The notes beneath the pieces are model-generated. The model worked only from the letters and a program-made list of their open reading frames with translations. It was not told where the DNA came from and did not search any database. Both the position numbers and the translations under genes were made by a program. Below, piece by piece: positions 19,411-50,386 of a stretch of 50,386 bases of DNA. Each line of letters begins with the position of its first letter. Position 1 is the first letter of the stretch. The DNA comes from Streptomyces toxytricini (GTDB lineage: Bacteria; Actinomycetota; Actinomycetes; Streptomycetales; Streptomycetaceae): positions 104,235 through 154,620 of the forward strand of contig NZ_BMTY01000001.1 in assembly GCF_014649915.1 (NCBI RefSeq). The letters are read 5' to 3'.

Positions 19411-19412
19411 CT

Positions 19413-33775: not shown

Positions 33776-33829
33776 GCGAGGTACTCAGCCTCTTCTGAAA
33801 ACGATGTCGCCAAGGTCCTGACCTCCATG

Positions 33830-35144: not shown

Positions 35145-35414
35145 AATCCAGGACTCCTCAAGCCACGCTCGCCGCAGTCGAACGTCACCACGCCGAGTAC
35201 CCCTCGACGATGGTGCCCGCGGCGCTCGCCGTCGGCAGCCTGATGCGGCGAGCGTAGATGCCGGATACACCCGAACGCCCGCCGAATGCAATCGACTTGA
35301 CAGGATCGTTGTACGTAGGGATATCGTTCGAGCTCTCAAGTAGGCTGGAAGATCGACACATTTGGTTGACCCGGCCATGCTGTTCTGTTCCGCAACGGGG
35401 GGTAAGGCCAGTAC
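35145..35414. other. Non-coding gap after the IS110 relic
   Basis: It contains a 12-bp inverted repeat (ACGCTCGCCGCA at 35165-35176 and its complement at 35244-35255) and a promoter for the next gene. No coding frame is convincing. Confidence 0.45.
35297..35327 (+). promoter_or_regulatory. Near-consensus sigma70-type promoter
   Basis: TTGACA (35297-35302) lies 19 bp before TATCGT (35322-35327), or 17 bp before GATATC. It is the best housekeeping-type -35 in the window, about 90 bp upstream of the membrane protein gene at 35415. Confidence 0.5.
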
Positions 35415-35906
35415 ATGCGGTGGAAAGCTCGCCGCGTCGGCAAGGGGCCTACGGTCAGCCACCGTGCCGTACGCAGGGCGGCCGGGAACATCGTTGAGGA
35501 AGCCAAGCGCCGGGTGCAGCCGTTCGACGACATCTTCCGCCCGCGCAGTGTCCGTGGACAACGACCAGTCCACCGCATTGTTACCCGGGCGTTCACGGGC
35601 GCCGTCATCGCGTTGGCCTTCGCGTTCACCGTTGCGTTCGAACTTGTCGCTGAAATCCCGTACTTCATGGAACCGCACGCCGGTGTCCTGGGTCTACCGA
35701 TAGGCATGGGCCTGTTCTGTCTCTGCACCGCTGCCGTCGCGGTCTGCGCGGCGCAGCGGGGCGGCGCGGTCAAGCAGACACCCGGGCGGGCGGTGGATGC
35801 CGTGGCAATGGTGCTGGACGCCGTCTACGACGTGCTGCACATGGCCACCACACGTCGTCACGCTGGGCAGCCAAGCGAGGGCTCACTGCACACGCGAAAA
35901 GTCTGA
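35415..35906 (+). CDS. Small membrane protein, function unknown
   Basis: A 163-residue protein with a basic N-terminal 55 residues (KRRVQPFDDIFRPRSVR), then two membrane segments (about residues 58-83 and 92-112). The second is Cys-containing (GLFCLCTAAVAVCAA). A cytosolic C-terminus of about 50 residues follows. No family is recognised. A near-consensus promoter lies upstream. The ribosome site is weak, so the exact start is uncertain. Confidence 0.6.
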   Translation: MRWKARRVGKGPTVSHRAVRRAAGNIVEEAKRRVQPFDDIFRPRSVRGQRPVHRIVTRAFTGAVIALAFAFTVAFELVAEIPYFMEPHAGVLGLPIGMGLFCLCTAAVAVCAAQRGGAVKQTPGRAVDAVAMVLDAVYDVLHMATTRRHAGQPSEGSLHTRKV

Positions 35907-35998
35907 CGACTACTTGGCTCAGCCTGCCGACGCATGACTGAGCGCGGGGTGGGTTGGAGCTCCGAAAGCAAACGGGGCAGGGCGAGGGGGACGAGGCG

Positions 35999-36664
35999 AT
36001 GAGGTGGGCTGCTCTACGGGGGACCGCCCGGAGCGGGGAGAGTGGCGGGCTGCGTGCAGAACCAGGCGGTAGAACGCCGATGCACCTCGCGAGAGCAGTC
36101 ATGCAGTGGCACAGGGACCCTTCGCGGCGCGCCCTCTTGAAGGAATGCGAGAAGCTGCTTGCCGATCTGCCTGTGCCCACTCCCTTCAGTGTCGAGGCGC
36201 TGGTCCGAAACATGGAGCATGCGCTGAAGCGTCAGATTCGGCTGGTGGCTTTTGACGACCCAGACGGAGGGCTGGGCACAGCCTGCGGCCTTCGAGTCAG
36301 GACGCCGGAGTTCACGGTCGTGCTCTACCGGCGCCGGTCCAGCCGGAACCAGACCGAGCACATCATCCTTCATGAGCTGGCGCACGAGTGGCTGGACCAT
36401 GGGAGCACCCTGACCGATGAAGAGGTCGAGCGATACGTCCCTGAGCACATCCGGGAGGAAGTCCTTCGTCGATTCCCCCTGGCCCTGGTCCAAGGCCGCG
36501 TGAACTACGACAGCCCGGAGGAGCAGCAGGCCGAGTTGTCGGCGTCCCTGATCAAGCGGTCGGCCCGCCGTCAGCCGTTGGCCGGCGACGACATGGTCAG
36601 CCTCTTGGAGTCCTCGCTCTCCCACCCGGTTGCTCCGCCGCGGCGTGGCCCCAAGAGCGCATGA
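35999..36664 (+). CDS. ImmA/IrrE-like metallopeptidase (MAB_1171c-associated)
   Basis: A soluble protein of about 221 residues with a zinc-peptidase motif in IILHELAHEWLDH (HExxH). An upstream FTVVLYRRRSSRNQTEH stretch fits the ImmA/IrrE fold. These peptidases usually cleave XRE-type repressors. In Streptomyces this type is typically paired with a MAB_1171c-like membrane protein, exactly as here: its TGA overlaps the next ATG. The start at 35999 has GAGGGGGACGAGG just upstream. An internal ATG at 36080 (MHLARAVMQWHRD) is a reasonable alternative. The XRE gene at 39055 is a candidate target but is not adjacent. Confidence 0.75.
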   Translation: MRWAALRGTARSGESGGLRAEPGGRTPMHLARAVMQWHRDPSRRALLKECEKLLADLPVPTPFSVEALVRNMEHALKRQIRLVAFDDPDGGLGTACGLRVRTPEFTVVLYRRRSSRNQTEHIILHELAHEWLDHGSTLTDEEVERYVPEHIREEVLRRFPLALVQGRVNYDSPEEQQAELSASLIKRSARRQPLAGDDMVSLLESSLSHPVAPPRRGPKSA

Positions 36665-37908
36665 CGGACGGCATGCTCGACTTCTTCAGGTACCTGACCG
36701 CGGCCGTGATGACCCTCATAGCCGTTTGGCGATTCCCCGCCGTCCGGTACGGTGACGCGCACCGCCGAGCCCTCTGGGGCGGCTACGCCGGATTCTCCGT
36801 GGCCTTGTGGCTCTACACCCCAGCAGCGATGCAGGCCGTGGACCGCATCCCCGTGATCGATCTGAACGCTCTCCTGAGACACTTCGCCAGCACCGCCGCC
36901 CTCATCGCGTCCTTGACGTACGTTGCGACCAGCTACGGCAAGAGCTCCGAAGCCGTGGTGCCACGGCACGTCACGGTGTCGCGCTGGATCGCCCGTGCCT
37001 CCTACCCGGTGGGCGCGATCGGCGTGACCCTGCTCACCATTCTTTTTTTCACCGTTGTGGACCGCCGGCGGCAAAGTGAAGACTTCCTCAGCGATCATGC
37101 AGGGGAATTAGGCGCCGCCGCGTATATGAGCGTCTTCTACTTCTTCCCGCTCGTCACAGCCGCCGTCTGCGGCTACCAGTGGTCGCGAGGGGCGCGAGAA
37201 GCCGAGACGATCAGTATGCGAATCGGTCTCAGGCTCATGGGAATCTCGATGTGGATGGGGCTCCTCCACACGACGGCCCGAATCGTCATCGTGTGGACGG
37301 CGGTATTTTTCCCGCTGAGTCATTCCACAATGGAGATGCTCATTGATCTCACGGCGATGTGGATGAACCTGCTCTTCCTGATCGTGGCCGTAGGCGCGAG
37401 CATCCCCACCACCAGCGTCGTTGCCGCTCGCTGGAAGACATGGAAGACCCTCTACCGGCTGCACCCGCTCTGGTTCGACCTGGTGAGGGCGTTCCCCGGA
37501 ACGAGTCTCTACCCGCCCGGGTCGCGCCTGGCCGAGCTGATCCACATGCGGGTCCCCAGCGATGTCCGCCTGGACCGATGGACCCAGGACATCGCTGATG
37601 CCTGCGAGAAGCTCCGGTACTACGCTCCGGAGACGCTCCTGTGGGCTGCTGAGGAGGCAGCCGCGTCGCACCCCGACCCCGAGCCGGGCGCCGAGGCGTA
37701 CTGGATCGCCGCGGCGCTCCGTGCCGCTGCCACCACGAAGCCCAGCCAATACGCGACGGGCCCGCTCCAGGAGAAACCCTTCGTCGACACGAACAGCGAG
37801 GCGGCTTGGCTCGTGCGAGTGAGCAAGGCTTACGCGGTCATCACCCCGGGCGATGCTCAAGAGCTTCTGGAGCAGTCTGCGGAGCTGAGTCTCGAACCGG
37901 ACGCGTAA
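36661..37908 (+). CDS. MAB_1171c-like polytopic membrane protein
   Basis: A 415-residue protein with about seven membrane segments in residues 1-250 (for example IDLTAMWMNLLFLIVAVGAS). A cytosolic domain with WKTLYRLHPLWFDLVRAFPG follows, the hallmark block of the MAB_1171c family, together with DVRLDRWTQDI. The C-terminal 150 residues are helical and soluble. The family is called a putative transporter but its function is not established. ATG/TGA overlap with the metallopeptidase shows a coupled two-gene unit. Confidence 0.8.
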   Translation: MTDGMLDFFRYLTAAVMTLIAVWRFPAVRYGDAHRRALWGGYAGFSVALWLYTPAAMQAVDRIPVIDLNALLRHFASTAALIASLTYVATSYGKSSEAVVPRHVTVSRWIARASYPVGAIGVTLLTILFFTVVDRRRQSEDFLSDHAGELGAAAYMSVFYFFPLVTAAVCGYQWSRGAREAETISMRIGLRLMGISMWMGLLHTTARIVIVWTAVFFPLSHSTMEMLIDLTAMWMNLLFLIVAVGASIPTTSVVAARWKTWKTLYRLHPLWFDLVRAFPGTSLYPPGSRLAELIHMRVPSDVRLDRWTQDIADACEKLRYYAPETLLWAAEEAAASHPDPEPGAEAYWIAAALRAAATTKPSQYATGPLQEKPFVDTNSEAAWLVRVSKAYAVITPGDAQELLEQSAELSLEPDA

Positions 37909-38182
37909 AGCGCTGAAGAAGTCGACTCGATTGGGAGGTCGCGTGAAATAGAGAACAGCCCCCAGGTGCTATTGCCGCCCTTCGGATTCGGGCGGGGCCG
38001 CCAGTCCCTCAAAGACGTGGCTGGTACCTTGGGCCAGACAGTGGGTGGCATCGTCTTCCGCCCTGTAAATACCGCCGACCCTGGAAAGCGAAGCGCAGGC
38101 GCTGTCGCCGCCACGCGTATGCCGGGGCCGGAACGCTGTCCAGTACGGGCGGCGCCCAGATCCTCAGCACTGGAGTTCCTGC
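37909..38182. other. Intergenic gap upstream of the HAD gene
   Basis: There is no coding frame of merit and no clear promoter. It separates the metallopeptidase/membrane pair from the HAD hydrolase. Confidence 0.4.
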
Positions 38183-38812
38183 ATGTCTCAGCACACCGGC
38201 CTCGTCCTCGACTTCGGAGGCGTCCTCACCACACCGCTCCTGCCCGTGGTGCTGGCCTTCGAGCAGCGAGAGGGGCTTCCCCAGGGTGCATGCATCTCGG
38301 CCCTGTACCAGGACGAAGAGGGCGTCCGGATCACCGGCGACCTCGAGCGCGGAGCGGTCAGCCAGACCGAGTGGAACGAGTTCGCCGGCAAGAAGCTGGG
38401 CGTCTCTCCCGACAACCTGATGGGCAGGATCTTCGGAGGCCTGCGTCCGGAGCCGCTGCTGATCAACGCGGCCGCCGCGGCGCGGCGAGCGGGGATCAAG
38501 GTGGGCATCCTGTCCAATTCGGTGGGCCTCGCGCCCTGGGACCTCTACGACGGCTACGACCTCGAGAAGCTGTACGACGTCGTGGTGATCTCCGAGCACC
38601 ACCAGCTGCGCAAGCCCGACCCCGAGCTCTTCGAGATCACGCTCAAGCTCATGGAGATGCCTGCCGAGCAGTGCGTCTTCGTGGACGACACCGAGGCGTA
38701 CGTCCAGGCGGCGGAGCAGCTCGGTTTCGCGGGGGTGCACAACAAGGACCCCAGGCAGACGGTGGTCGACCTGTCGAACCTGCTGGGCGTGGACCTCACC
38801 GCCGCGCCGTAG
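38183..38812 (+). CDS. HAD-superfamily hydrolase
   Basis: A 209-residue protein with the HAD motifs. Motif I reads LVLDFGGVLT, in which the second Asp is replaced by Gly as in many epoxide-hydrolase-N-type or phosphatase-like HADs. Motif II is the Ser in ILSNSVG. Motif III is the Lys in HHQLRKPDPELFE. Motif IV is FVDDTEAYV. A helical cap lies between motifs I and II. It is probably a small-molecule phosphatase; loss of the second Asp in motif I may lower phosphatase activity. A strong hairpin follows the gene. Confidence 0.85.
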   Translation: MSQHTGLVLDFGGVLTTPLLPVVLAFEQREGLPQGACISALYQDEEGVRITGDLERGAVSQTEWNEFAGKKLGVSPDNLMGRIFGGLRPEPLLINAAAAARRAGIKVGILSNSVGLAPWDLYDGYDLEKLYDVVVISEHHQLRKPDPELFEITLKLMEMPAEQCVFVDDTEAYVQAAEQLGFAGVHNKDPRQTVVDLSNLLGVDLTAAP

Positions 38813-38846
38813 CCGTCCTCCGAGCGGGCGGCTGGTCCGGCCGCCC

Positions 38847-38887
38847 CCGGCTGTTGACCACCTCACTGCGAGGTGGTCAACAGCCGG
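38847..38887. terminator. 18-bp perfect hairpin terminator
   Basis: Stem CCGGCTGTTGACCACCTC with its exact complement and a 5-nt loop. It lies between the HAD gene and the convergent XRE gene, so it may stop transcription from both sides. Confidence 0.8.
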
Positions 38888-39054
38888 CGATCTGCGTTGT
38901 GCCGGTGCGGCTCGGGATCCTGCTCGTGGGCGTCAGGGCAGGCGAACCGCATCCGGTACGCGGAAGGTGGCGTTCCGCCACCGGACGAAGCCCGGCCGTC
39001 GGTTACCTCGACAGGCGGACGGCTCGGCGGCGCTGTCAAGGCGTGGCGCCGACG

Positions 39055-39930
39055 TCACTGCTCGCTCTGCTCGCCCGGCAGCTTGTTCTTCAGCTCTCCG
39101 ACGACTTCGTTGATCTTGGCCATCATTTCGGCCGACAGCCCCGCCTGGTTGCCCCGGGCGGCGAGGCCGAGGATCTGGCCCTGGTGGATCGACCCCAGGA
39201 AGCGGATGGCTTCGAGGAATTCACCGGCCGCAGGGCTCAACTCGGCGTCGTCCTGGAAGAGGGCGATGTCGACCTGGAGAGCATGGGCCAGGCCGGCGCG
39301 TACTGCGCCCGAGGCAGTCGTCGGGGCGCCCGAACGCAGCGTGGCGATGTCATCGGCAGTCATGTGCGTTGTGCCGCTGTGCTCGTTGACGGCCTGCGCG
39401 ATCTGCTCGTTGGACGGAGGCGTCCGGCCCGCGTACCCGTGCTCCAGCAGATAGTTGATCTTCTCGCCGACGGTGCGAGGTGCAGACGGACGAGCTTCCC
39501 TCGGGGGCCGCGCCCTGCGGAGCCCGAACGAGACGTCCTGCGCGGCCAGCAGCTCTTCCGTCGTCACCCCGTAGGCGTGCGACAGAGGTCCCACGTAGGC
39601 GTCCTGGAGCCGACGCCTGCCGGACTCCGCGTTGCTCAACGGCACGCGACTGGCGTTGATGGCCTCGGAGGCCTGCGCCACGCTGAGGCCGGCGTCGCAG
39701 CGGAGCAACTGCAGGTCCACGGCGCCGTCGTAGGGGAAGAGGGCGTCGAGGTCCTGACCGAGTGCTGACGCGATCCCCGGGAGCTTCTCCCCCTTGGGGA
39801 ACTCTTCGCCGCTTTCCCATCGCGCCACGGTGGGGCCGCTGACGCCTACTCTCGCGCCCAACTCCTTCTGGCTGAGCTCCTTGCCCCGTCTGACAGCTCG
39901 CACTCGGCTGCCGTCGAATTGACGTGGCAC
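39055..39930 (-). CDS. XRE-family regulator with tandem helix-turn-helix domains
   Basis: A 291-residue protein with a GTG start. The first helix-turn-helix is SQKELGARVGVSGPTVARWE (about residues 20-39). A second XRE-like unit is LSVAQASEAINASRVPLSNA (about residues 81-100). The C-terminal half (TVGEKINYLLEHGYAG...) resembles the EspR-type unit used in mycobacterial and Streptomyces regulators (helix-turn-helix plus dimerisation helix). It likely autoregulates. The palindrome AACGTACGTT lies 86 bp upstream. It is transcribed divergently from the 40172 gene. Confidence 0.8.
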   Translation of the reverse strand: MPRQFDGSRVRAVRRGKELSQKELGARVGVSGPTVARWESGEEFPKGEKLPGIASALGQDLDALFPYDGAVDLQLLRCDAGLSVAQASEAINASRVPLSNAESGRRRLQDAYVGPLSHAYGVTTEELLAAQDVSFGLRRARPPREARPSAPRTVGEKINYLLEHGYAGRTPPSNEQIAQAVNEHSGTTHMTADDIATLRSGAPTTASGAVRAGLAHALQVDIALFQDDAELSPAAGEFLEAIRFLGSIHQGQILGLAARGNQAGLSAEMMAKINEVVGELKNKLPGEQSEQ

Positions 39931-40015
39931 ATGAACTCCTGCGACTTGGCGGTCTAGACCTCGGGTGCTGATGAGAGAACCCTAACGGAAACTGGCTTGA
40001 TCGATCCATGCATCT

Positions 40016-40025
40016 AACGTACGTT
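40016..40025. promoter_or_regulatory. Palindrome AACGTACGTT, possible operator
   Basis: A perfect 10-bp palindrome in the 241-bp divergent gap between the XRE regulator and the 40172 gene. It could be the XRE binding site. Confidence 0.35.
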
Positions 40026-40171
40026 TCTGTATCGCACCTGATGGTGGGGCTCTGCTCGCGCGTCGATCTTATGCCCTGCGGTTAGTCCATCGCTGAACTA
40101 CCTGCCCTGTACAAGGCGGGTCCGCCGGACCCGGTCATGCAACGGCCCAGGAACCTGGAAGGATCCCACCG

Positions 40172-40690
40172 ATGATCCAGTCTCACCCAGAGGTGTCCGA
40201 CTCTGGCGAGTTCAAGGGTTTCAACGAAGCCCGGCGCATCATGTGGTGCTACGAGGCTCGCGCCCGCGTGTCCGAGCGTTTCGAGGAGACGAGCTTCCTC
40301 GCTGATGCCAACGTCGCAGCGGTCCACGTCGACAACACCACTCGGGCGGACCGCGTGTTCCTCGTGGCGTTCGACGAGGCCGGCCGGCAGGTCGGCGTTG
40401 ACACGCTCTACGTCGACGGGCCGAACCAGCACCTGGACGTCGCTTCCGAGTTCGACCATGACTTCACTGGGATGAACGTCGTGCTGGACTCGCAGCTTGA
40501 CCAGGCCATCTCTCGGGAGAACGGCTGGGTCGTCGATCTGAAGGTGCTGCGCGAGTACGAGCCCTTGGCCGATCGTCGGGCCACGCAGCGCGCGGTGTTC
40601 TTGGTGCATCTGCAGGACATGATGAAGAACGGCGAGGTCCGCGGATTCCTGTTTGGCCGAGGTGAGTCCGACGAGGCTGATGCGGCGTGA
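40172..40690 (+). CDS. Hypothetical 172-residue acidic protein
   Basis: A well-formed gene (GGAAGGA before the ATG) divergent from the XRE regulator and followed by a hairpin. The protein is soluble and acidic, with alternating beta-like segments (AAVHVDNTTRADRVFLVAFD, GMNVVLDSQL) and a helical C-terminus. No catalytic motif is seen and I do not recognise a family. The divergent regulator may control it. Confidence 0.7.
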   Translation: MIQSHPEVSDSGEFKGFNEARRIMWCYEARARVSERFEETSFLADANVAAVHVDNTTRADRVFLVAFDEAGRQVGVDTLYVDGPNQHLDVASEFDHDFTGMNVVLDSQLDQAISRENGWVVDLKVLREYEPLADRRATQRAVFLVHLQDMMKNGEVRGFLFGRGESDEADAA

Positions 40691-40716
40691 GGGACCGCGG
40701 GTCTGCGAGGAGACGA

Positions 40717-40751
40717 CGACGCCCTGATGGCCCCGCGGCGTCAGGGCGTCG
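40717..40751. terminator. Hairpin between convergent genes
   Basis: An 11-bp stem CGACGCCCTGA / TCAGGGCGTCG with a 13-nt loop, between the 40172 gene and the LysM-like gene. Confidence 0.65.
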
Positions 40752-40792
40752 ATTCAGGCGCGGGTACGTGACGGCGTAGCCCTGTCGCGTCG

Positions 40793-41344
40793 TCACGCCC
40801 GTGGGAGGAGCGACGAGACCCACGCGTGGATGAAGTCCGGACTCAAGATCTTTTTCGCCTCGATCAGGATGTCGATCGGAACCCCCGTCGCCCCCGAGAT
40901 CGCGGCGAGCGTATCGCCTGGCGCGACGGTGTCCGGCTTCGTCTTCGGCGCGGGCCGGCTCCGTGCGTCCGATCCGTTGGGCTCGTTCTCGCCGCCGCGA
41001 CCGGGCCTCGAAGTCGGACCCGCCCCGCTCTCGTCCTGCTTCCCCGCGGCGCTCTCGCTCGGCTGCGGGGCGCTGCTGCTTCCGGCGTGCTTCTCGTCAG
41101 GGTTCCCCGGTGCCTCGGCCGGGGCGTGATGGCCCGGCCGTGCCCGGGTGAAGCCGCCGTCGGAAGTCGCGAGCTGCGTCAGGCCCCAGCCGACGAAGAG
41201 CGCCGCTCCGCCCGCCATGACGCCGACCGCGATCAGCGGCCCCTTGCCGAAGCCCATCGGGCCGACGTGACTCGGGGCAGTTGCTCCCGTCTCTGCCGTC
41301 GGCTTCGACGCCGGCCCCTCTGGCTTCTCAACCGTAGCCGCCAT
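40793..41344 (-). CDS. Membrane-anchored protein with C-terminal LysM-like domain
   Basis: A 183-residue protein. A short cytosolic N-terminus and one membrane segment (PLIAVGVMAGGAALFVGWGL) are followed by a Pro/Ser/Gly-rich linker of about 80 residues. A C-terminal module follows, starting VAPGDTLAAISGATGVPIDI and ending LLPR, which matches the LysM pattern GDTL..I....G... A wall-spanning tether for the transfer apparatus or a peptidoglycan-binding protein is plausible. The ATG at 41344 is chosen because GAGGAG precedes it; a longer start at 41383 would put that site inside the gene. Confidence 0.7.
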   Translation of the reverse strand: MAATVEKPEGPASKPTAETGATAPSHVGPMGFGKGPLIAVGVMAGGAALFVGWGLTQLATSDGGFTRARPGHHAPAEAPGNPDEKHAGSSSAPQPSESAAGKQDESGAGPTSRPGRGGENEPNGSDARSRPAPKTKPDTVAPGDTLAAISGATGVPIDILIEAKKILSPDFIHAWVSSLLPRA

Positions 41345-41794
41345 CCCTGCCCCAACTCCTCTATGAATAGCATGCAGAGTCATCCGTGCCTGCCATTGGC
41401 ATTCTACTCAGAGTCTAATCTAAGTCGATGCAATAAGGGACTGAATGGTAGCACGAACCCTGTCCGAGAGATCGCCAATGGCTCCCCGAACCATCGACCG
41501 CCAGGCCGAACGTAGGAACCGCACCGCCATGGGTCAACTGCTCCGGCCTCTCTTCTGCTGTGGCCGATCCGAGCAGGGCGACCGCGGGTTCGGCGTCCGA
41601 ACTGCGACCTGGGGCCGGCTGGGTCAACCCCGGGGGAGTGGACTGTCGATGCTCTGCTCCTGATGGGCAGACGGGGAGGCATCCGCCCCCGACCGCGCCG
41701 TCAAGTACGAGCTGTTCGACGCACACATTTGTGACGCCTTGCGACGTCCTCTCGGCCCTGGACGGCCATCGTGACTGTCCAGGAATCAGGGCCC

Positions 41795-41828
41795 GTGCTC
41801 CAGTCTGCACCGTGCGGGACTGGAGCAC
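41795..41828. terminator. Hairpin with pyrimidine tail
   Basis: An 11-bp stem GTGCTCCAGTC / GACTGGAGCAC with a 12-nt loop, followed by a C/T-rich run. No recognised gene precedes it on the plus strand, so it may end an unannotated small RNA. Confidence 0.4.
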
Positions 41829-41949
41829 AGGCTCCTCCTTCTCCTGCCTGGCCCGCCTCTCAGGGATGGAGCGAGTCATCATTCAACGTCCGTGTCGACT
41901 CGGCGATAACCCTCGTATACGAGTCGAAAACAAGTCAATCGAGACTGAC

Positions 41950-41955
41950 TATAAT
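41950..41955 (+). promoter_or_regulatory. Consensus -10 (TATAAT) placing the start point at the antitoxin ATG
   Basis: TATAAT is a perfect -10. Its usual start point 6-7 bp downstream falls at 41962, the A of the antitoxin ATG, predicting a leaderless message. A weak GTCGAA -35-like site lies at 41923. The palindrome CGTATACG (41914-41921) may be an operator. Confidence 0.55.
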
Positions 41956-41961
41956 GAAGGC

Positions 41962-42369
41962 ATGACTCGCAACGACAATGCCCACGGCGGCAGCAGTCCC
42001 GGCGCCGAGCTCCCGAAGTTCTCTGTCAATGTCGTCCCGACAGACCAGCTCAGGCACGAGGAACTCGCCACGGTCCTGAACCTCTATCGCCGCGGCCAGG
42101 TCACGCCGCTGATCTTCGGAGACGGCAACAAGCCCGAGGCCGCGATCATCCCCTTCGCAGCGTTCGTGCGCCTCATGAAGTACGACCACGCGGCCCACGT
42201 CCACGCCGAGGCTGATTTCCAGGCCGAGCTCTCCCGTCGCATCCAGGAGTCCGACGCCTCCGGCGAGGCGGGCATGACCGTCGAGGAGCTGGCCGAGAGC
42301 CTCGGCCCGCTCGGTCAGCAGTGGGCGGATGACCATCGTGCTGCCCAGCAGGAGAAGCGTCATGAGTGA
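41962..42369 (+). CDS. Phd/YefM-like antitoxin
   Basis: A 135-residue protein whose central block (QVTPLIFGDGNKPEAAIIPF) and following AAFVRLMKYD fit the Phd/YefM antitoxin fold: DNA-binding N-terminal half with a strand-turn-strand that reads LIFG....EAVIIP. The C-terminal 45 residues (MTVEELAESLGPLGQQWADD) form the toxin-neutralising tail. The downstream gene overlaps its stop by eight bases (ATGAGTGA), the typical antitoxin-toxin arrangement. The pair would stabilise the plasmid. Its N-terminus is slightly longer than in short Phd proteins. Confidence 0.65.
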   Translation: MTRNDNAHGGSSPGAELPKFSVNVVPTDQLRHEELATVLNLYRRGQVTPLIFGDGNKPEAAIIPFAAFVRLMKYDHAAHVHAEADFQAELSRRIQESDASGEAGMTVEELAESLGPLGQQWADDHRAAQQEKRHE

Positions 42370-42874
42370 GCGTCGGCCTGTCATCCGCATCCTGCCGACC
42401 GCCGGTCTCAAGCAGGACCTCCAGGCTCTCCACGACGCTGCGCTGAAGAAACCTCAAGGACCAGAGGGCCGGCTCCTGCGCGTGGCTCTCAACGAGCTGG
42501 GCCGGATCCAGCAAGGCGTGCCGGGCACGCACCCGCTGGGGTACATGCCCAGTTATCCCGATCTCTCCGATTGTGAGACCACGTACGTCGGCGCAGATCC
42601 GAACGCAAAGCCCTCGCACCGGATCGTCTGGCGGGAGCGCGCGCCCCAGCGCCCGGGCGAGCCCGTCATCCGCGAGATCATCGCCCTGGGGGAACGCGCG
42701 AACGGGCAGGCCTACCACATGGCCGGCCAGCGTCTGGGCCGCCCTGTGGGCTTCACTCTCGCCGAGCTGGCCGCGCAGCGGCAGCCGATTGCGAGTCCCT
42801 CGCGACCCAGGCAGCGCTTGACCGGCAGTTTCGACACGCCATCCATGAACGAACCTGACCACCAGTTCGAGTGA
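42362..42874 (+). CDS. Putative toxin partner of the Phd-like antitoxin
   Basis: A 170-residue basic protein translated from an ATG overlapping the antitoxin stop. A beta-rich centre (YPDLSDCETTYVGADPN) is followed by SHRIVWRE, which is like the closing strands of RelE/YoeB-type mRNA interferases. The C-terminal part is longer than in those families and Arg/Gln-rich. The toxin assignment depends mainly on the operon arrangement. It could instead be a divergent plasmid stabilisation protein. A perfect 18-bp bidirectional hairpin follows. Confidence 0.5.
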   Translation: MSERRPVIRILPTAGLKQDLQALHDAALKKPQGPEGRLLRVALNELGRIQQGVPGTHPLGYMPSYPDLSDCETTYVGADPNAKPSHRIVWRERAPQRPGEPVIREIIALGERANGQAYHMAGQRLGRPVGFTLAELAAQRQPIASPSRPRQRLTGSFDTPSMNEPDHQFE

Positions 42875-42919
42875 CCATCGCCGACGGCTGAGCCTCGCGG
42901 CCGAACTCGTCTCATCCAC

Positions 42920-42965
42920 AAAGAACATACCCGTGATGCATGCAGGTATCACGGGTATGTTCTTT
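42920..42965. terminator. Bidirectional terminator with 18-bp perfect stem
   Basis: Stem AAAGAACATACCCGTGAT with its exact complement, a 10-nt loop, and T-rich ends in both directions. It lies between the convergent toxin gene and HU-like gene. This is a classical factor-independent terminator, unusual in being AT-rich for this genome. Confidence 0.9.
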
Positions 42966-43052
42966 TCTGCCGGCCCCTCGCTTTCTGCGATCCGGGCCGC
43001 AGCTCACGACCCTCAATAGCGTTTTCGAACTTGCCGGCATCCCCGATCGTCT

Positions 43053-43373
43053 CTAGGCCCGTGGTGAGGCGTCGTCCCCATGGCTCCCCAGTCGGCGGTT
43101 GAAGCTGCTCGATGCGGAGAACTTGAGAACCACGTAGTCACCGACGTTGCTCTTGCCGAAGCGCACCTTGTGACCCTTGTGGTCCTGCCGGTAGAAGCGG
43201 CCGAAGCTCGTGAGTACGACCGCCTCACCGCCGCTGACCGCTCCAGTGAGCTCATCCAGCAACGACTCGTATACCTCGTTCACCACCCGGATGGGCAACT
43301 TGCTGCGAGTCGCGACCCGTGAGATGAACTCGCGCTTATTTACGCGCGGTGTCTTCATCGTTTCCATGTCCAT
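43053..43373 (-). CDS. HU/IHF-family DNA-binding protein
   Basis: A 106-residue protein in the HU fold. The N-terminal helices read VNKREFISRVATRSKLPIRV. Then VVLTSFGRFYR matches the HU pattern V.L.GFG.F. The arm-like region HKVRFGKSNVGDYVVLKFSA stands in place of the canonical RNPxTG arms, so DNA contacts are altered. It could organise the plasmid origin or bend promoter DNA. It is the next gene after the polymerase-led operon on the same strand, 126 bp away, and may have its own promoter. Confidence 0.75.
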   Translation of the reverse strand: MDMETMKTPRVNKREFISRVATRSKLPIRVVNEVYESLLDELTGAVSGGEAVVLTSFGRFYRQDHKGHKVRFGKSNVGDYVVLKFSASSSFNRRLGSHGDDASPRA

Positions 43374-43382
43374 ACCATGCCC

Positions 43383-43501
43383 TATCGCGGCTCATTAGGC
43401 TGTCCCACTTGGTAGCCAATCTATCGGAGATGGTCATGAGTTGAGAAGGAGGGTGGGGCCTGTCAAATGCAGTGGCCGCGCTTATCGTGGCTCATTCGGC
43501 T
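43383..43501. repeat. Direct repeat pair 100 bp apart
   Basis: TATCGCGGCTCATTAGGCT (43383-43401) and TATCGTGGCTCATTCGGCT (43483-43501) match at 17 of 19 positions. One is just upstream of the HU-like start and one overlaps the stop of the preceding gene. They may be binding sites for a regulator. Confidence 0.45.
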
Positions 43502-43865
43502 AGATTTCCAGGTCCGGCTCGATGCCCTCCCGGTCGCCCCTGGGCTCATAGACGACCGACTCGATGATGCTCCGCGTGTTCGGATCGCGGCGCTGGTTCA
43601 GGACCCTGTCATGAGACTCCTCGAACCGCTGCTGCGCCGCCACGCGGTGGGCCGCATCGAGCTTCGCGCCGATGGTGCGCTCTCCGAACTCCATGATCGA
43701 GCTCAGTGCCGACGTCGCGCCCTGCCGGAGCGCGCTGACGTGCGGCTTGTTCTGCGCCCGCTGCTGCTCCCATCGGCTCCGATCCTCCGGTGTGACGTAG
43801 CCGAACATCCGTGCGAAGCGCGATCCGAACCTGACCTGATGTCCCTCGTCCTGTTCCTGGTTCAA
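43500..43865 (-). CDS. 121-residue hypothetical protein, third gene of the polymerase operon
   Basis: Starts at a TTG with the strong site AGGAGGAGGGGGC just upstream; no ATG or GTG lies suitably close. The protein is charged and helical: VRFGSRFARMFGYVTPEDRS, a Gln-rich segment, and SALSSIMEFGERTIGAKLDA, ending in an acidic tail. No family is recognised. It lies 41 bp after the 579-residue gene and shares its operon with the polymerase-like protein, so an accessory role in that complex is possible. Confidence 0.6.
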   Translation of the reverse strand: MNQEQDEGHQVRFGSRFARMFGYVTPEDRSRWEQQRAQNKPHVSALRQGATSALSSIMEFGERTIGAKLDAAHRVAAQQRFEESHDRVLNQRRDPNTRSIIESVVYEPRGDREGIEPDLEI

Positions 43866-43906
43866 GCCCCCTCCTCCTGCTCCTCGTTCGTGTTTTCGGA
43901 TCGCGC

Positions 43907-45646
43907 TCAGGTTCGCTGGAAGTCCTCGGAGTCGGCCTCGGCGTTCGGGCCGTCGTTCTGCGCGCCGGCCTCCTGCTCGGCCGACGGACCCGTAGGGCGC
44001 GACCGCGGCCTGAGCCGCTGCTCCTCGAAGAAGGCCCCGGGGTCGTCGACCGCCGTCTGCAGTGTTCGCTGCCAGTTCTCTCCGAGGCTCCGCTTCAGCT
44101 GCGCCTCGAGATCCGGGTACTTCTCGTTCACTGCCTCCATCGCGTCGACGTAGGCGTTGGAGTAGACCCGCTGCTGCTCCTCGGGCGGCAGACCGTCGAT
44201 GTCCATGCTCGCGATCATCACCTCGGACTGGTCCAGGCGGTGCTGCAGCATGTCGGGCAGCCCGCTGGTGTCCAGACCCTGTTTCTGCGCCGCGAAGCCG
44301 ACCAGGTAGCCGAGCATGTTGCCTCCGTAGGCCTCTTTGTCGCCGCGGCCCAGCGCGTTGAGGAGCGAGGTCTTCATCGTCTCGGCGAGCTGAACCTGGT
44401 GGGCGTCCGCATCCATGGGGCGGCGGAGTGTGAACATCGCGTCCTCGGGCAGACGCCGGCCCAACTGGTCCTCGAACTCCCCGCTCCAAACGGTGCGGAC
44501 CCGGTCGGAGCCCGCGATCCGCTCCTCGTGTGCGGGGGCCTTGACGATCCGTCCGTGGGCCACGCCGTTGAACATGGTGCGCAGCTCGGGCTCGTACTCC
44601 ATCCGCTCGCCGATGATCTTTCGGGCGCGCTGGACGACCTCCCGGCGCTCCAGGCCGTCTTCGCTGATCTGCTCGTACAGGCGCTTGCGCAGCGCCCGGT
44701 GGCTCTCGCGGATCAGGCCGACGTCCGCGCCCGGCTCACGCATCTTCCAGAAGGCGTTCTCCATGAGAGCGACCTCGGTCATGGCTGCCGAGTCCGTAGT
44801 GAACATCTCCCGGTGGCCGCGCTCACGATGCTGCATGGCGTCCAAGCGCGTGCGCCACTTCTTCGACAGGTGGTCACGCGGATCCGTGCTGCCGATCAGG
44901 CGCTCGCGCCGGGCCCCGCTCGGCAGGTCCTTGAAGATCCTCTGCCGGTGCGTGATACCGCTCTCGGCAAAGGCCACCATGCCACGGGTCCGGGTGTCGA
45001 TGCGCTCCTGGATCTTGTCCTTGAGGGGTTGGAGGTAGCTGTCCATCTCCTTCTTGAAATCCGGGGCGAGCATCCGCATCGTCATCACCATGCCGACCGC
45101 CTGGATGATCGAGTTGGCATTCACTCCGCGCGAGAGCGGCTTGAGACAGGACTGCATCATCATCTGCATGTAGACGTGGTGCATGACGCCGAGATCCTGC
45201 GTCCGCTCCTCGTCGGTGAAGCCGGGCACCAACAGCTTCGAGTCCCGCAGCGAGGCCATGTACTTCTCGCAGGCCAGCCGCGTCTCCGCCCTGAGTTTGA
45301 GCAGCTGCTCGCGCTGATCCAGGCCCTCGCTCTCGTCCTCGGCCCGGTCGACGTCGATCCCGTGCACGCGGTCACGGTCGGCCATCCGCTTCCGGGTCTT
45401 CTCACCGAAGAATTCGCGGGCACGGTCCCGGAGCCGCTCACGCCAGGCGCGCACACCGTCCCCGTCCTGCGGCCCCGGACCGTCGATCACGTCGGCGTCG
45501 ATCGGCTCGCCCGAGCGCGAGTCCCCGTGGGCGTAGGCGTTGCCTCGCGGCTCACCGGTCCGAAGCCGATCGCCGCCAACCGGAAGCGCCTTGGTCGCGC
45601 GCCGGCGAACCGCGGGTCCTGTTCCCAGTTCCTTGGGCTGTGCCAT
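43907..45646 (-). CDS. 579-residue hypothetical protein coupled to the polymerase-like gene
   Basis: A large, charged, mostly helical protein. The N-terminal 100 residues are basic/acidic and probably disordered. The core has segments such as MHHVYMQMMMQSCLKPLSRG and SIIQAVGMVMTMRMLAPDFK, and the C-terminal 60 residues are acidic. No catalytic motif, membrane segment or sigma-factor signature is evident. The ATG at 45646 is one base from the stop of the polymerase-like gene, so the two are almost certainly translationally coupled and made in similar amounts. It is a candidate specificity, assembly or structural partner. A longer frame upstream overlaps the polymerase gene and is not used. Confidence 0.75.
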   Translation of the reverse strand: MAQPKELGTGPAVRRRATKALPVGGDRLRTGEPRGNAYAHGDSRSGEPIDADVIDGPGPQDGDGVRAWRERLRDRAREFFGEKTRKRMADRDRVHGIDVDRAEDESEGLDQREQLLKLRAETRLACEKYMASLRDSKLLVPGFTDEERTQDLGVMHHVYMQMMMQSCLKPLSRGVNANSIIQAVGMVMTMRMLAPDFKKEMDSYLQPLKDKIQERIDTRTRGMVAFAESGITHRQRIFKDLPSGARRERLIGSTDPRDHLSKKWRTRLDAMQHRERGHREMFTTDSAAMTEVALMENAFWKMREPGADVGLIRESHRALRKRLYEQISEDGLERREVVQRARKIIGERMEYEPELRTMFNGVAHGRIVKAPAHEERIAGSDRVRTVWSGEFEDQLGRRLPEDAMFTLRRPMDADAHQVQLAETMKTSLLNALGRGDKEAYGGNMLGYLVGFAAQKQGLDTSGLPDMLQHRLDQSEVMIASMDIDGLPPEEQQRVYSNAYVDAMEAVNEKYPDLEAQLKRSLGENWQRTLQTAVDDPGAFFEEQRLRPRSRPTGPSAEQEAGAQNDGPNAEADSEDFQRT

Positions 45647-45647
45647 C

Positions 45648-48600
45648 TCAGTACCCCATCCCGTAGTCGTCGTCGTTGGCTTCGGGCTGGTCGATCTCGA
45701 TGCTCGGCGTGTAGACCGGGCGCCTCGCGCCCACGACCACGGCATGCGCGGAGCGGCGCTGCGAGCCGCGGGTGCGGGACGCCGCTGCGTCTTGAGAGAT
45801 CACGTCGCGCTTGACCACCGAGTCATCGACGGCGATCACGGCGTGGTCCAGGCCGTGCCTTCCGGTGGAGCCCAGCTGATCCAGCTGCGACGACATCTGC
45901 ACCCGAGCCTTCAGAGCCGCCGAGGACGCGAACTGCTCGTTCTTTTCGCCGTCGTAGACGCTCTCACGGTTCTTGGCCGCCTCGACCAGATCGGCGAACG
46001 CGCCGGCGTAGGCCATCCGGTCCATCAGGGTGCCCCGCAGCGACACGTCTTCTTCCAAGTTGCGGATGAGCCCGGTCGCCGGGTCCTCCAGCGCACTGGC
46101 CACGCGGGCCACGTACTCCGGGTTGACCCTGACTCCGAAGCCATCCTTCGATTCGTAGAACTCGATGAACTGCTTCTTCCACTCCTCGGCCGCAGCCTGG
46201 ACGGGCTCACCGTCCATGAATACCGTGCGCCACTGGCCCGGGCCGACACGTTCGATGCGGCGGCCCCTCCAGAGATCACGGCCGGGGCCCTGGAGCATCG
46301 CGTATTTGTGCCGTGCCTCGGCAGCGTCGTGCTTCGCCTGCAGGATCGACTGGGTCACCGGGTAGGTGACCTCCAGGACGGCCTTGAGATCCTCGCCGCG
46401 CAGCGCGCGCACGGCGCGCTGGCTGAACGCGCCACCCAAGCCGGTGCCGTGGGACTTGATCGCCGTGGCGAACATCGAGGCTTCCTGGTCGGATTGGGTG
46501 ATGCCGGGCGTACCCTGTGCATCGCCCAGGTTCCGGGCGTAGTCCTCGAGCTTCTTCTCGCTCCCCTTCGCGCCGGTCCTGACACAGACCTCGCGCACGC
46601 TCTGCAGGTGTGCCTCGCGATCCGCGAACGTCAGAGCCGCACCGAATTCGCCACGCTGCGCCCGGCGGTACAGCCCGCTCAGCTCCTCCGTCACGATCTG
46701 CTGGGCGAGCCTGACGTCCTCGGGAGAATCGGAACCCGTGACTGCCCGCAGCCGGAGCCGGTTGGCCTCGCTCCGCGAACTCTCCAGCTCTTGGGCCATT
46801 CTGGCGTTCTTGGAGAGTGCGACCTGGGTGTCCAGCGACACCTGCATGGCCAGCGGGTGTGAACCATCGCCCTTGACCACTCCGGTGTCCAACAGGTTGG
46901 CCGGCACCGAGAGCTTTGCCAGGGCCTCAGCCTTGGCTGCCTCGCTGTGCAGCTTCACCACGGCGACGGCATCACCGTCGAAATCGCCGTCAAAGCAAGC
47001 GTCCATTACCGGGTTGATCGCCGCGCCGGTGAGCCGGTCGTCGATCGCCACCCGCATGTAGCGCACACCGGCGTCACGGAGCACCGGGTCACGCCACACC
47101 AGCGCGTGGTCGCCCTCGGCGAGCCCCAACTTCGCAGCCTTGACCGAGCTGAGGGCGACTTGGTCGACGTCCAGCCGTGGGTCTGCGGTCCACACCATCG
47201 TCGCCGAGTCGGTGAGCCGTGAGGACATCAGCCCGGTCTTGAAGATGTTGCTCGTGCCCGTCAGCACTCGGTTCTGGACGTCGGTCGTGATCGCTTCGAA
47301 GGCGCGCTGAGCGCGCGAGACCGATTCGCTCATGCCGCGACGCACCTTGGCGCGCTCCTCGGCAGACAGACCCTGGCTGTCCAGCTGCTCGGCCATGTAG
47401 CGGTAGCGGCAGGCCTCCACGAAGACGTCCTGGTAGCTGCGGGTGTAGTCGTGCGTGACGGAGGACCCGTCCTCGAACTCCTGACCACTACGCAGATGCG
47501 AGGACATCACCGGCAGCTTCCACGAGCTCGCGCTCACCGTCTCGGTCTGCTCACCGGTCGGATACGTGAGCGGAAACGGGATCTCCATGTCGCCACCGCG
47601 GTCGCCGATGAGGTCGCCGAAGGACTCGCGCATCGCCATGATGTTCAGTCCAGGGAGCTGGCCCGCCCCGCGCGGCTGCGTGCGCAGCAAGTCGGGCATC
47701 GGGATGAACCGACGCTCGGTACGCTCGTCGAGGCCCTCGGCCTGGCCGATCACGCGCAGCGTGCCGTCAGCGTCCATGTCCATGCCGGATACCAGCAGGT
47801 ACTCGCGCAGGCTCGACTCGGCACCGCTGTTGTGGCCGTAGAACTCGCGCATGATCGCCGGACAGTCCTGAGACTGCAGCGCCCAGGCCAGCTGAGCGGA
47901 GGCCTTACGGCCCTTGCCGGCACGCACCTGCTCGTCGTCGTAGATCTTCGTCTTCTCGTCGACGGCCATATGGGTGACCACGAAGCGCATCTCGCCCAGG
48001 GCACTCGGCCGCAGTTCTCCGTTGGGCGAGCGCAGATCGGAGACGTTCCCGCTCATCAGCTCGCGCGCCGAGCCCGCGTTGCGCCGGGAGATGAGGCTGA
48101 ACGGACTCATCACCACGTCCAGACCCGGGTTGGCCCGGAACCAGTTGACCTCTTCGACAACGGCCTGCCGCTGCGCGTCGTGCAGAGGCATGTCCCGGTC
48201 GACGATCAGCGAGATCACGCCCTTGTTGCCGTGCAGATCCGAGATCTTGTCGCCCACGACGAGATCGCGCTCCCGACCGCCGGCCCCGCGGATGCGGTGG
48301 CGCCCGGCGAATTCCTTCGACACCACGATCGGGTCATCAGCCGTCCAGCCGCCGAAGGTCATCAGCGCCGTCTTCGCCGGTGCGGTGACCTCAGAGGACT
48401 GCATGATCGTCGAGGCCGTCATCTGCTGACGGTCGAAGGGGTCGTACCGCAGCGTCTCGAGCTCGGGGAGAGCCATGAGCGGCGCACGCTGTCCGGCCAC
48501 GCTCTCGTCGCCCGGCACGATCCGACCATCGCTGTCGACCCGGGCCTGAGTGGTCAGGTACCGCACGATGCCCTGGTTGGTCGCGCCTCCGGTCATCACC

Positions 48601-50386
48601 GGGTCGAAGTAGCCGCTGGGCGCCGCCACGTTGTTCCGGTCCTTGCCGGTGAGCACCGCCATGTTGCGCCCGCCGGTGAGCCGCCAGGCGTCGAAGTGGT
48701 TGTCATCAGCCGGGTCGGTTCGGTCGCGCTGGGCCCTGTACTCGGCGTAGACGGTCGAGCCGGCCTTGATCTCGTTGGAGTAGCGCACACGGCGCGCCTC
48801 GGTCTGCAGGATCGCTGCCGTCCACTCGTCCAGGTGTGCCTTGATCTCGCCGGTGGACTCGTCCTGCCGGTACGTGGTGGCGCGCTCGATGTAGTCGATG
48901 GGGTGCCTCGTGCCGTAAAGCTGTGAGTAGACCGTGTTGAGCGAGGAGGGCTCGCCGGTCTCGCTCCGCCCGGTGATGACGTCACCGGCGATCTGGTACT
49001 GGATGCGCTCGTGCATGAGCTGCTCGTAGCCGCGCAGGCGCGTGCGCTCCTCGACCGAGGTCGGAGCCTCGCCCGGGGTCTGGGCCGTGATCGTGGCCTC
49101 GTAGCCGGGCACGATCAGGGCGTTCTGCCCGCCGGCGAAGGCGGTGGTGATCTCGCCGTACCTGCCGACGTCGAACACCTGGCCGATCTCACCCGAGATC
49201 GGAGTTCCCTTGCCGTCACGGCGAAGCTTCTCGCCACTCCAGCGAATGACGCCGTGATCGTCGACCAGGATCTCGGCGACCGTCGCCGCGTTGCGCTCGA
49301 TGCTCTCGCGCACGGTGACCCCGATACGCCGCATGAACGCGGATTCGTGATCGGCGATCGGCACGGCACGCTCGGCGTTGAAACGGACGAGCCGGTCCTT
49401 GAACCGGGTCGTCTGGAAGGTCGAGCCCATGATCTCGTCAGGGGAGATCTCGCAACGACGAAGCGCTGAGGCGAGGTTGTCGAGGTTCGACCACTGCCCG
49501 GTGGGGCTGGTCATGTATCGCGCCACCCGCTCCGGGTTGAAGCGCTGATCGACCCACTCGCCGTCGACGTCGTGGGGCTCCGCCTCCCAGGTCCCGATGA
49601 GTTCGAAGGGAACGTCCTCAGCGTGCTGTCGGACCTTCTCTGCGGCGGTGCCGCCGTAGGCAAGGTTGCCCATCTCGGGCGTCTCCTCGGCCTGCAGCTC
49701 GCCGATCTCCTCCAGCCGTTGCCGGTACATCTCTTCGGTCGCACCCGGGCGCAGCAGTTCGCTGTGCGCGCCTGTGAGCACGTCCCAGTACGAGCGCTGG
49801 ATCGCAGCGACCTCGGAGTCAGCCGAGTACTCCGGCGCTTCGATCGCATCCAGCTGTCCGCCGGTTCGCTCCAGCTCCATCTCGGCACGGGCAATGAGGT
49901 CCTCGACGCCGAGGGCTGCCCGCAGGTTCTGCCGAGCGCTCTCGACGGCGGTCTTCGCATAGGCCGCGGCCGACTCGGTGTCGATGAAAAAGGCCGGCAG
50001 CGAGCGTTTCTTCGCGTCCCGGCGCAGCATCACCTTCGAGCCGGGCCTGGGGCCGGACTCACCGGGGGCCACGTAGTCGCCGACCACGAACATCGACTCA
50101 CGGTCACCGTGGTAGCTGTCGGGTACATCCACCACCGTGCGGCCACGGCCGCGCTCCTGGTGCGTCGCGCCGGTCTCGCCGGCCGCGCGCCCCGGAAGAT
50201 CCGTACGCTCGACGCGATGTCCCTGGGCGAAGCGCAGTAGTTGGACGGCCTCCGCCGGCGAGGGAGAGTAGACCGCCATGCCGCCGGGAACCCGGTGGTT
50301 CGTCGAGTAGCGCAGCACGGTGCCCTTGTCGTATATCCGAGCTCCGGCGTACTCCTCCTGGCGTGTGTCGATGAGGCGGATCTCCA
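45648..50386 (-). CDS. Single-chain beta/beta-prime-like RNA polymerase (5' end outside window)
   Basis: A giant protein. The frame is open through the right edge (the first in-frame GTG inside is 50318; numbering from there gives 1,556 residues). A beta-type catalytic region reads GDKISDLHGNKGVIS at about residues 689-703, with both conserved lysines (K691, K699), preceded by TADDPIVVSKE and followed by MSPFSLISRRNAG as in bacterial beta. A beta-prime-type region reads WRDPVLRDAGVRYM and CFDGDFDGDAVAVV, with all three metal-binding Asp (D1112, D1114, D1116), then the serine/EA helix. Both double-psi barrels thus sit in one chain with about 420 residues between. N-terminal lobes and zinc or sigma-binding regions are not recognisable. 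It is likely a plasmid- or phage-derived DNA-dependent RNA polymerase, perhaps transcribing plasmid genes. It leads a three-gene operon. Confidence 0.85.
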   Translation of the reverse strand, partial: EIRLIDTRQEEYAGARIYDKGTVLRYSTNHRVPGGMAVYSPSPAEAVQLLRFAQGHRVERTDLPGRAAGETGATHQERGRGRTVVDVPDSYHGDRESMFVVGDYVAPGESGPRPGSKVMLRRDAKKRSLPAFFIDTESAAAYAKTAVESARQNLRAALGVEDLIARAEMELERTGGQLDAIEAPEYSADSEVAAIQRSYWDVLTGAHSELLRPGATEEMYRQRLEEIGELQAEETPEMGNLAYGGTAAEKVRQHAEDVPFELIGTWEAEPHDVDGEWVDQRFNPERVARYMTSPTGQWSNLDNLASALRRCEISPDEIMGSTFQTTRFKDRLVRFNAERAVPIADHESAFMRRIGVTVRESIERNAATVAEILVDDHGVIRWSGEKLRRDGKGTPISGEIGQVFDVGRYGEITTAFAGGQNALIVPGYEATITAQTPGEAPTSVEERTRLRGYEQLMHERIQYQIAGDVITGRSETGEPSSLNTVYSQLYGTRHPIDYIERATTYRQDESTGEIKAHLDEWTAAILQTEARRVRYSNEIKAGSTVYAEYRAQRDRTDPADDNHFDAWRLTGGRNMAVLTGKDRNNVAAPSGYFDPVMTGGATNQGIVRYLTTQARVDSDGRIVPGDESVAGQRAPLMALPELETLRYDPFDRQQMTASTIMQSSEVTAPAKTALMTFGGWTADDPIVVSKEFAGRHRIRGAGGRERDLVVGDKISDLHGNKGVISLIVDRDMPLHDAQRQAVVEEVNWFRANPGLDVVMSPFSLISRRNAGSARELMSGNVSDLRSPNGELRPSALGEMRFVVTHMAVDEKTKIYDDEQVRAGKGRKASAQLAWALQSQDCPAIMREFYGHNSGAESSLREYLLVSGMDMDADGTLRVIGQAEGLDERTERRFIPMPDLLRTQPRGAGQLPGLNIMAMRESFGDLIGDRGGDMEIPFPLTYPTGEQTETVSASSWKLPVMSSHLRSGQEFEDGSSVTHDYTRSYQDVFVEACRYRYMAEQLDSQGLSAEERAKVRRGMSESVSRAQRAFEAITTDVQNRVLTGTSNIFKTGLMSSRLTDSATMVWTADPRLDVDQVALSSVKAAKLGLAEGDHALVWRDPVLRDAGVRYMRVAIDDRLTGAAINPVMDACFDGDFDGDAVAVVKLHSEAAKAEALAKLSVPANLLDTGVVKGDGSHPLAMQVSLDTQVALSKNARMAQELESSRSEANRLRLRAVTGSDSPEDVRLAQQIVTEELSGLYRRAQRGEFGAALTFADREAHLQSVREVCVRTGAKGSEKKLEDYARNLGDAQGTPGITQSDQEASMFATAIKSHGTGLGGAFSQRAVRALRGEDLKAVLEVTYPVTQSILQAKHDAAEARHKYAMLQGPGRDLWRGRRIERVGPGQWRTVFMDGEPVQAAAEEWKKQFIEFYESKDGFGVRVNPEYVARVASALEDPATGLIRNLEEDVSLRGTLMDRMAYAGAFADLVEAAKNRESVYDGEKNEQFASSAALKARVQMSSQLDQLGSTGRHGLDHAVIAVDDSVVKRDVISQDAAASRTRGSQRRSAHAVVVGARRPVYTPSIEIDQPEANDDDYGMGY

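Follow-up and report, generated by a model that had tools for sequence, protein, structure and literature searches.

Single-chain two-barrel RNA polymerases are known from phages, from plasmids of fungi and from RNA interference in eukaryotes (PMC7281927, PMC5467207, PMC10770324). YonO of the Bacillus phage SPbeta is such an enzyme on a mobile element, and the relevant part of its description gives it no detectable trigger loop (PMC5467207). Excerpts on gp96, the large single-chain two-barrel virion RNA polymerase of Thermus phage P23-45, describe it as fused to the tail tape measure protein and without a clamp, and polymerases of its type are thought there to enter the new cell along with the DNA (PMC10770324). 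Among cellular enzymes, fused RpoBC proteins of the Helicobacter type combine the two barrels in a single chain. The transfer regions of conjugative elements encode polyvalent proteins and transferred primases, large proteins that are thought to act on arriving DNA. The polyvalent proteins carry Toprim or PrimPol primases, and passages of the survey that describes them confine N4-type polymerase modules to N4-like phages and contain no treatment of two-barrel polymerases in conjugative elements (PMC5512222). MOB-L systems (pLS20 and relatives), as far as partial descriptions go, have a MobL relaxase and a VirD4-type coupling protein.

The window analysed here, a stretch of 50,386 nucleotides from Streptomyces toxytricini, contains part of a gene for a predicted two-barrel polymerase, the family of which sits in conjugation modules. 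Like the fused RpoBC proteins, the family is predicted to have both barrels in one chain and in the same order, and shares with them the active-site residues, an RxP motif, the beta-prime clamp-helix region and the SGARG-like and trigger-loop-like blocks. Unlike them, it has no beta flap, a shorter inter-barrel stretch, its own N-terminal part and a conjugation-module setting. The trigger-loop-like signature also separates the family from YonO. gp96 is a candidate for an enzyme that works alike, although the family polymerase adjoins a coupling protein; no phage gene order or tail-protein fusion was observed in the family loci, which have a conjugation gene order instead. The predicted two-barrel architecture distinguishes the family from the polyvalent proteins. 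Compared with the MOB-L systems as partially described, the module shares the relaxase and the coupling protein. These are constantly accompanied here by the polymerase, an AAA+ ATPase and a coiled-coil membrane protein, and VirB4 is not recognised.

Gene and protein

The polymerase gene was found as an open frame of 1,578 codons on the minus strand (50384..45648 in the window's list of open reading frames), which corresponds to residues 272-1849 of a polymerase of about 1,849 residues. The frame in the sequence-only reading thus stands, but the gene is not complete: the window edge that cuts it is a 23-N scaffold gap in the assembly (L002:5622-5644). The match to residues 1-270 of the homologue from a plasmid of Streptomyces sp. 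NBC_01454 is on the far side of this gap and in another frame, as would follow from a nominal gap length. The NBC_01454 homologue (L010) is intact, with 1,848 residues and 90% identity to the window polymerase, and the relative in genome G341 has an unbroken frame of 1,850 codons that is 98% identical to the window copy. The features of the polymerase and its downstream neighbours are as follows.

45648..50384, minus strand: single-chain two-barrel RNA polymerase gene (predicted), residues 272-1849, 5' end past the N-gap
48219..48254, minus strand: beta-type active-site block GDKISDLHGNKG with two lysines
46971..46985, minus strand: beta-prime-type catalytic DFDGD
46563..46574, minus strand: GAKG block replacing beta-prime SGARG
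46329..46364, minus strand: trigger-loop-like signature YPVTQSILQAKH, assigned from conserved residues, with poor profile statistics
45651..45674, minus strand: acidic-hydrophobic C-terminal tail DDDYGMGY
43907..45745, minus strand: partner gene with no assigned function, next to the polymerase in every one of the 31 actinobacterial loci L015-L045
43053..43373, minus strand: HU-type DNA-binding protein, the next conserved module gene

The true start of the partner gene is probably the in-frame ATG that aligns with a 579-residue homologue.

The first reading had placed both catalytic motifs in one frame, and they are there: the beta-type GDK...HGNKG motif GDKISDLHGNKG at 48254-48219 and DFDGD at 46985-46971, 421 residues apart. 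Its three aspartates are also correct, but its numbers for them (D1112/D1114/D1116) are not: in the open frame they fall at 1134/1136/1138, and in the homologue at 1405/1407/1409. Pfam has a match on each side: PF00562 (Rpb2 domain 6) matches residues 704-784 above the cut-off (E 1.1e-7), and PF00623 (Rpb1 domain 2) matches residues 1088-1156 slightly below it, with E 2.4e-5 and 25.1 bits against a cut-off of 25.3. All 60 aligned relatives keep both beta-side lysines, all three beta-prime aspartates and the R-D-P preceding the second barrel. The dN/dS ratio (Nei-Gojobori) is 0.21 against NBC_01454, 0.17 against the Arthrobacter homologue and 0.33 against the Kribbella homologue. The invariant catalytic residues and the ratio of 0.21 argue that the motif pair is not due to chance, and these ratios indicate that the gene is under purifying selection.

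Kinship with the cellular enzyme was observed from several directions. With the core of the NBC_01454 homologue as query, 523 proteins were retrieved at E <=0.001; among the matches listed (the best 120 of the 523), databases already name some members automatically as 'DNA-directed RNA polymerase', so that the enzyme class was guessable beforehand. The Staphylococcus homologue returned 87 proteins, including Paenibacillus and an Actinomadura member, and from E 9e-16 down this list contains chains with domains of both cellular subunits. The comparison with RpoB and RpoC profiles that the sequence-only reading had suggested is positive: the family profile matches bacterial RpoB (7l7b, 1.1e-16) and RpoC (6j9e, 1.4e-16) in the PDB, and 16 fused RpoBC-type proteins with E 1.4e-32 across 555 columns. 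The YonO-type comparison suggested with it came out differently: in addition to the RpoBC kinship, no profile match was obtained to the larger annotated piece of phi3T YonO, a single sequence of 625 residues (prob 0.1%). PADLOC gave no match for the polymerase. For the two barrels that structure prediction was to show, the two sides differ. The core fold, predicted with a confident model, keeps a beta-prime-like clamp-to-bridge region and matches beta-prime chains in structural rows that span residues 583-1045; these rows lie on the beta-prime side, and the beta side is supported by the sequence profiles.

The window's trigger-loop-like signature is AVLEVTYPVTQSILQAKHD and that of Staphylococcus is EVTEPLTQATLKLKHD; two fused RpoBC-type proteins have SIGEPGTQLTLRTFH and SMSEPLTQMTLKTFH. 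Over the 60 family rows the signature residues are T in 59, Q in 60, L in 58 and H in 56, and the full string P-x-T-Q-x-x-L-x-x-x-H is present in 51 of the 60 rows and in 8 of 16 fused RpoBC-type rows. The first alignment from hhalign (E 0.0096) is another pairing of the trigger-loop segments, and the second brings them into register with a poor score (prob 2.3%, E 0.02). The assignment thus rests on the conserved residues. The spacing of the landmarks differs from that of fused RpoBC. The gap from the pre-flap beta block to GDK has a median of 32 residues in the family (52 of 60 rows) and 145 in fused RpoBC (12 of 16 rows), and the GDK to DFDGD distance has a median of 429 (58 of 60 rows) versus 626 residues (13 of 16 rows); rows without the landmark strings were left out. 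These spacings indicate that the protein is a shortened single-chain relative of cellular RNA polymerase in which the beta flap is missing. It very likely synthesizes RNA, and from its sequence we infer an active DNA-dependent RNA polymerase.

The conjugation module

Scanning of GTDB contigs with the family alignment gave 46 loci. Neighbours were searched in all frames of at least 120 codons in the GTDB, plasmid and viral loci, with profiles built from the Streptomyces and Staphylococcus module proteins. Of 43 loci considered (L015-L057), two with less than 1 kb upstream were dropped, which leaves 41 testable loci from Actinomycetota and Bacillota. In 36 of these, a coupling-protein gene lies at most 600 bp upstream of the polymerase on the same strand, and the adjoining protein belongs to one VirD4/TraG subfamily. 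The five others (L047, L049, L051, L052 and L057) are all metagenome-assembled contigs. The weak matches L058-L060 were left out; the coupling protein adjoins the polymerase in L058 and L059 and not in L060. When viral loci are included and a polymerase-like frame of at least 900 codons is required, the coupling protein adjoins in 41 of 56 loci. At any position in the locus, 35 of the 41 testable loci have a match to the AAA+ protein, 33 have one to a coiled-coil protein with a hydrophobic C-terminal segment, 32 have one to the partner and 28 have one to HU.

The gene order in actinobacterial loci is AAA+, coiled-coil protein, coupling protein, polymerase, partner and HU, with MobL upstream in all four loci that reach far enough (L002, NBC_01454, pGKT2 and pGS01). 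In Staphylococcus the order is MobL, AAA+, coupling protein, polymerase, topoisomerase IA and lysozyme-domain protein, with 3 kb between the coupling protein and the polymerase. The relaxase matches PF18555 (3.2e-107) and the coupling protein PF02534 (1.4e-19). Pfam recognised no VirB4-type ATPase among the module proteins scanned (L002, L003, L010 and L013), several large members of which have no Pfam match. With a relaxase, a coupling protein and a lysozyme-domain protein present and no VirB4 recognised, the transfer channel may be unusual.

The coiled-coil-looking protein of L002:10804-12954, which has a C-terminal hydrophobic segment and no Pfam match, constantly adjoins the coupling protein (33 of 41 loci). 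The partner protein has no Pfam match (two members scanned), nothing in NCBIfam or PADLOC (one member) and no profile match in PDB sequences; one PHROG without known function matches it at E 0.013. Intein-like inserts with homing-endonuclease domains (LAGLIDADG_3, Hom_end) were observed in module genes, namely in the AAA+ gene of NBC_01454 (L010:8316-12611) and in the coupling-protein gene at L018:2883-8144, L019:3005-8143, L028:2944-8106 and L045:2938-8235. In Arthrobacter sp. Hiyo8 (L044:1-17184) the module genes are broken across many frames, by decay or by sequencing error. The annotation of the NBC_01454 plasmid also names an RNA polymerase subunit alpha gene (L068:10402-11427), about 27 kb past the polymerase gene.

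Distribution and setting of the window copy

Polymerase and coupling protein also occur together across whole records. Among 72,556 plasmid records, the polymerase was found in 13 and the coupling-protein subfamily (counted at E 1e-20) in 13, with 12 in common. The unshared records are a 90-kb Lactococcus plasmid with the polymerase only and a Fructilactobacillus plasmid with a weak coupling-protein match only. In pJM1A some 33 kb separate the two genes, which lie on opposite strands. Of 394 Streptomycetaceae genomes, four have the polymerase, and these same four have the coupling protein; one extra coupling-protein match has 29% identity over 99 residues. These records are not independent and represent four distinct backgrounds: Streptomyces, Gordonia/Rhodococcus, Staphylococcus and Lactococcus. 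In a sample of the phylum, 12 of 396 genomes gave a polymerase match. The window's own genome is the one true hit, and the other 11 are weak local matches (16-18 bits), which we read as ordinary RpoB/RpoC.

The annotated pieces of the plasmid pGKT2 cover its full length and contain a single MobL annotation and a single coupling-protein annotation, both of the module. Its transfer between genera by mating is reported, with Gordonia KTR9 and Rhodococcus jostii RHA1 as one pairing (PMC5640721). Automatic typing in PLSDB lists pGKT2 as mobilizable only and the NBC_01454 plasmid as non-mobilizable.

A phage origin was considered and set aside: among 50,697 phage records, 4 and 6 matched, weakly and locally, and a scan of viral contigs gave one full-length relative and six weak local ones. 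The full-length relative (L061, IMGVR_UViG_3300026735_000021) is filed as viral, has coupling-protein frames directly upstream of the polymerase and is probably a conjugative element. Among viral structures the core is best matched by BFVD A0A8S5SD80 (E 9.9e-11, TM 0.36), which has 1,423 residues, is named a 'minor tail protein', comes from Siphoviridae sp. ctnpt50 and is perhaps another tail-linked polymerase.

The sequence-only reading called the window copy plasmid-borne, for which no support was found. In G341, the closest relative among the sampled genomes, the region is collinear on a 6.86-Mb contig. Window positions 1-20000 and 30000-45000 and loci L003 and L006 are found there in the same order and orientation with 84-98% identity, and G341 carries a further ~70 kb between two parts of L003. 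Given this collinearity, an integrated element or a region of the chromosome describes the setting of the window copy better than a plasmid does. At C1:249111 there is a match to the integrase family. The claim that the gene stands beside conjugation and partition genes is half right. The conjugation genes (coupling protein and MobL) are confirmed, but partition genes are not: the frame at 26493-27773 of the window has a sub-threshold MreB-like actin-fold match in Pfam (21.8 bits versus 27.8), and the ParA-type family PF13614 has no match on the window's contig. The product of 26493-27773 is a possible actin-type partition protein.

Role of the polymerase

The coupling protein adjoins the polymerase in 36 of 41 loci, shares 12 plasmid records with it and is found in the same four of 394 genomes, which makes it likely that the polymerase is dedicated to conjugation. 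The earlier suggestion of dedicated plasmid transcription or primer synthesis is partly supported. The odds that the protein is exported with the strand and acts in the recipient are about even. Our preferred reading is a dedicated conjugation polymerase that makes RNA from the element's own DNA during mating, probably after carriage into the recipient with the single strand, and we hold it with slightly less than even confidence. In its most specific form, advanced more tentatively and by analogy, conjugation would have its own travelling RNA polymerase, fed by a C-terminal tag through the coupling protein and the AAA+ ATPase, and this stripped, single-chain relative of the cellular enzyme would transcribe genes of the arriving strand without waiting for host sigma or a second strand.

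The beta flap of cellular enzymes holds sigma region 4. Since this element is missing, the polymerase would start without host sigma in the usual way, helped perhaps by its own N-terminal part or by the partner protein. The acidic-hydrophobic tail would pass the polymerase to the coupling protein and the AAA+ ATPase for export. In the recipient, the enzyme would transcribe the first genes from the incoming strand or lay RNA primers, in the manner of phage virion polymerases. Delivery of plasmid proteins into recipients by an F-type system is described in part of one report (PMC8406263). Points against this role are the post hoc choice of the tail motifs, the five loci without an adjoining coupling protein, the absence of a recognised VirB4, the poor profile score of the trigger-loop alignment and the typing of pGKT2 as mobilizable only and of the NBC_01454 plasmid as non-mobilizable. 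The polymerase gene is also preceded by a terminator-like hairpin and a promoter-like element of its own, so that joint production with the transfer genes is not required.

Many of the polymerases end in a divergent linker followed by a short acidic-hydrophobic tail, for example DDDYGMGY, EGFELEM, EEVGMSL or DGLDL. G followed by M, L, I or F (G[MLIF]) occurs within the last seven residues in 34 of 69 non-redundant polymerases (drawn from 213 sequences) versus 2.7 expected from windows further in, and is missing in the remaining 35; acidic residues make up 27.5% of the tail versus 16.1% of the sequence before it. A second motif, GP[EQ][LM], lies near the end of five of 1,167 stop-terminated frames of at least 80 codons in pGKT2. 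Four of the five are annotated module genes, including the partner and a LysM protein, and the fifth is unannotated; the pGKT2 polymerase ends otherwise (EGLGA). The same ending was observed on a small frame that separates the partner from HU (three Nocardiopsis loci) and on a frame directly after the polymerase (Virgibacillus). The polymerase tails recall C-terminal T4SS signals, which in excerpts on the Legionella system are hydrophobic or Glu-rich (PMC7251119). As both motifs were chosen after inspection of the sequences, the tail signal is a lead and not a test.

The polymerase might instead stay in the donor and transcribe transfer genes or other element genes from promoters of its own, as YonO does for the late genes of SPbeta. 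This is unlikely in our judgement. In its favour, the gene sits within the transfer gene cluster, and the single-chain polymerases of phages each transcribe certain classes of genes on the element that encodes them, according to parts of two reports (PMC5467207, PMC10770324). The non-coding DNA upstream of the polymerase speaks to this point. It contains a conserved element (GAATGG, TATGAT and CTATAGATAGTTATG), which was learned from 19 non-redundant upstream regions (L035, L041 and L045 score low). On one side of it is a terminator-like hairpin that follows the coupling-protein gene, and on the other the start of the polymerase (for example at L010:19122, L020:8259, L030:8239 and L043:8226). 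A host promoter combined with an operator would explain it equally well. With one strong match per locus in the four loci scanned, it is not a repeated promoter specific to the mobile element. Action in the donor would leave unexplained the constant tie to one coupling-protein subfamily, which holds where the genes are far apart as well.

A primase, which would lay short RNA primers for the second strand on transferred DNA in donor or recipient in place of Toprim or PrimPol enzymes, is rather improbable. Element-encoded primases recur in conjugative systems in the passages available from the polyvalent-protein survey (PMC5512222), and loss of the flap would fit starting on single strands. However, pGKT2 additionally has an annotated P4-type primase, and the trigger-loop-like signature and the beta-prime-like clamp-to-bridge region suit long products. 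A stray phage polymerase or decaying relic with no transfer role is very improbable for the family taken together: two-barrel single-chain enzymes are best known from phages (in parts of PMC7281927 and PMC10770324) and the best viral-structure match (A0A8S5SD80) is named a 'minor tail protein' of a metagenomic siphovirus, but phage records yield weak local matches, the sole full-length relative on a viral contig (L061) has coupling-protein frames alongside, and transfer genes adjoin in 36 of 41 loci of a gene with dN/dS 0.21 and invariant catalytic residues.

In the literature searched we found no account of two-barrel polymerases belonging to conjugation modules of bacteria, and we do not claim priority. 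The tie of the polymerase to the coupling protein was likewise not met there. It joins the polymerase to a single subfamily of coupling proteins across two phyla, and the plasmids concerned come from soil actinobacteria, staphylococci and lactococci. Known answers to the activation of genes on an incoming single strand include single-stranded promoters; besides primases and exported proteins, the polymerase offers a further and directly testable answer to how genes are switched on from that strand. Being a naturally compact two-barrel enzyme that has a trigger-loop-like signature but lacks the flap, it is useful for the question of minimal transcription. Service in conjugation, if true, would be a new job for two-barrel enzymes and the mating counterpart of the phage virion polymerases.
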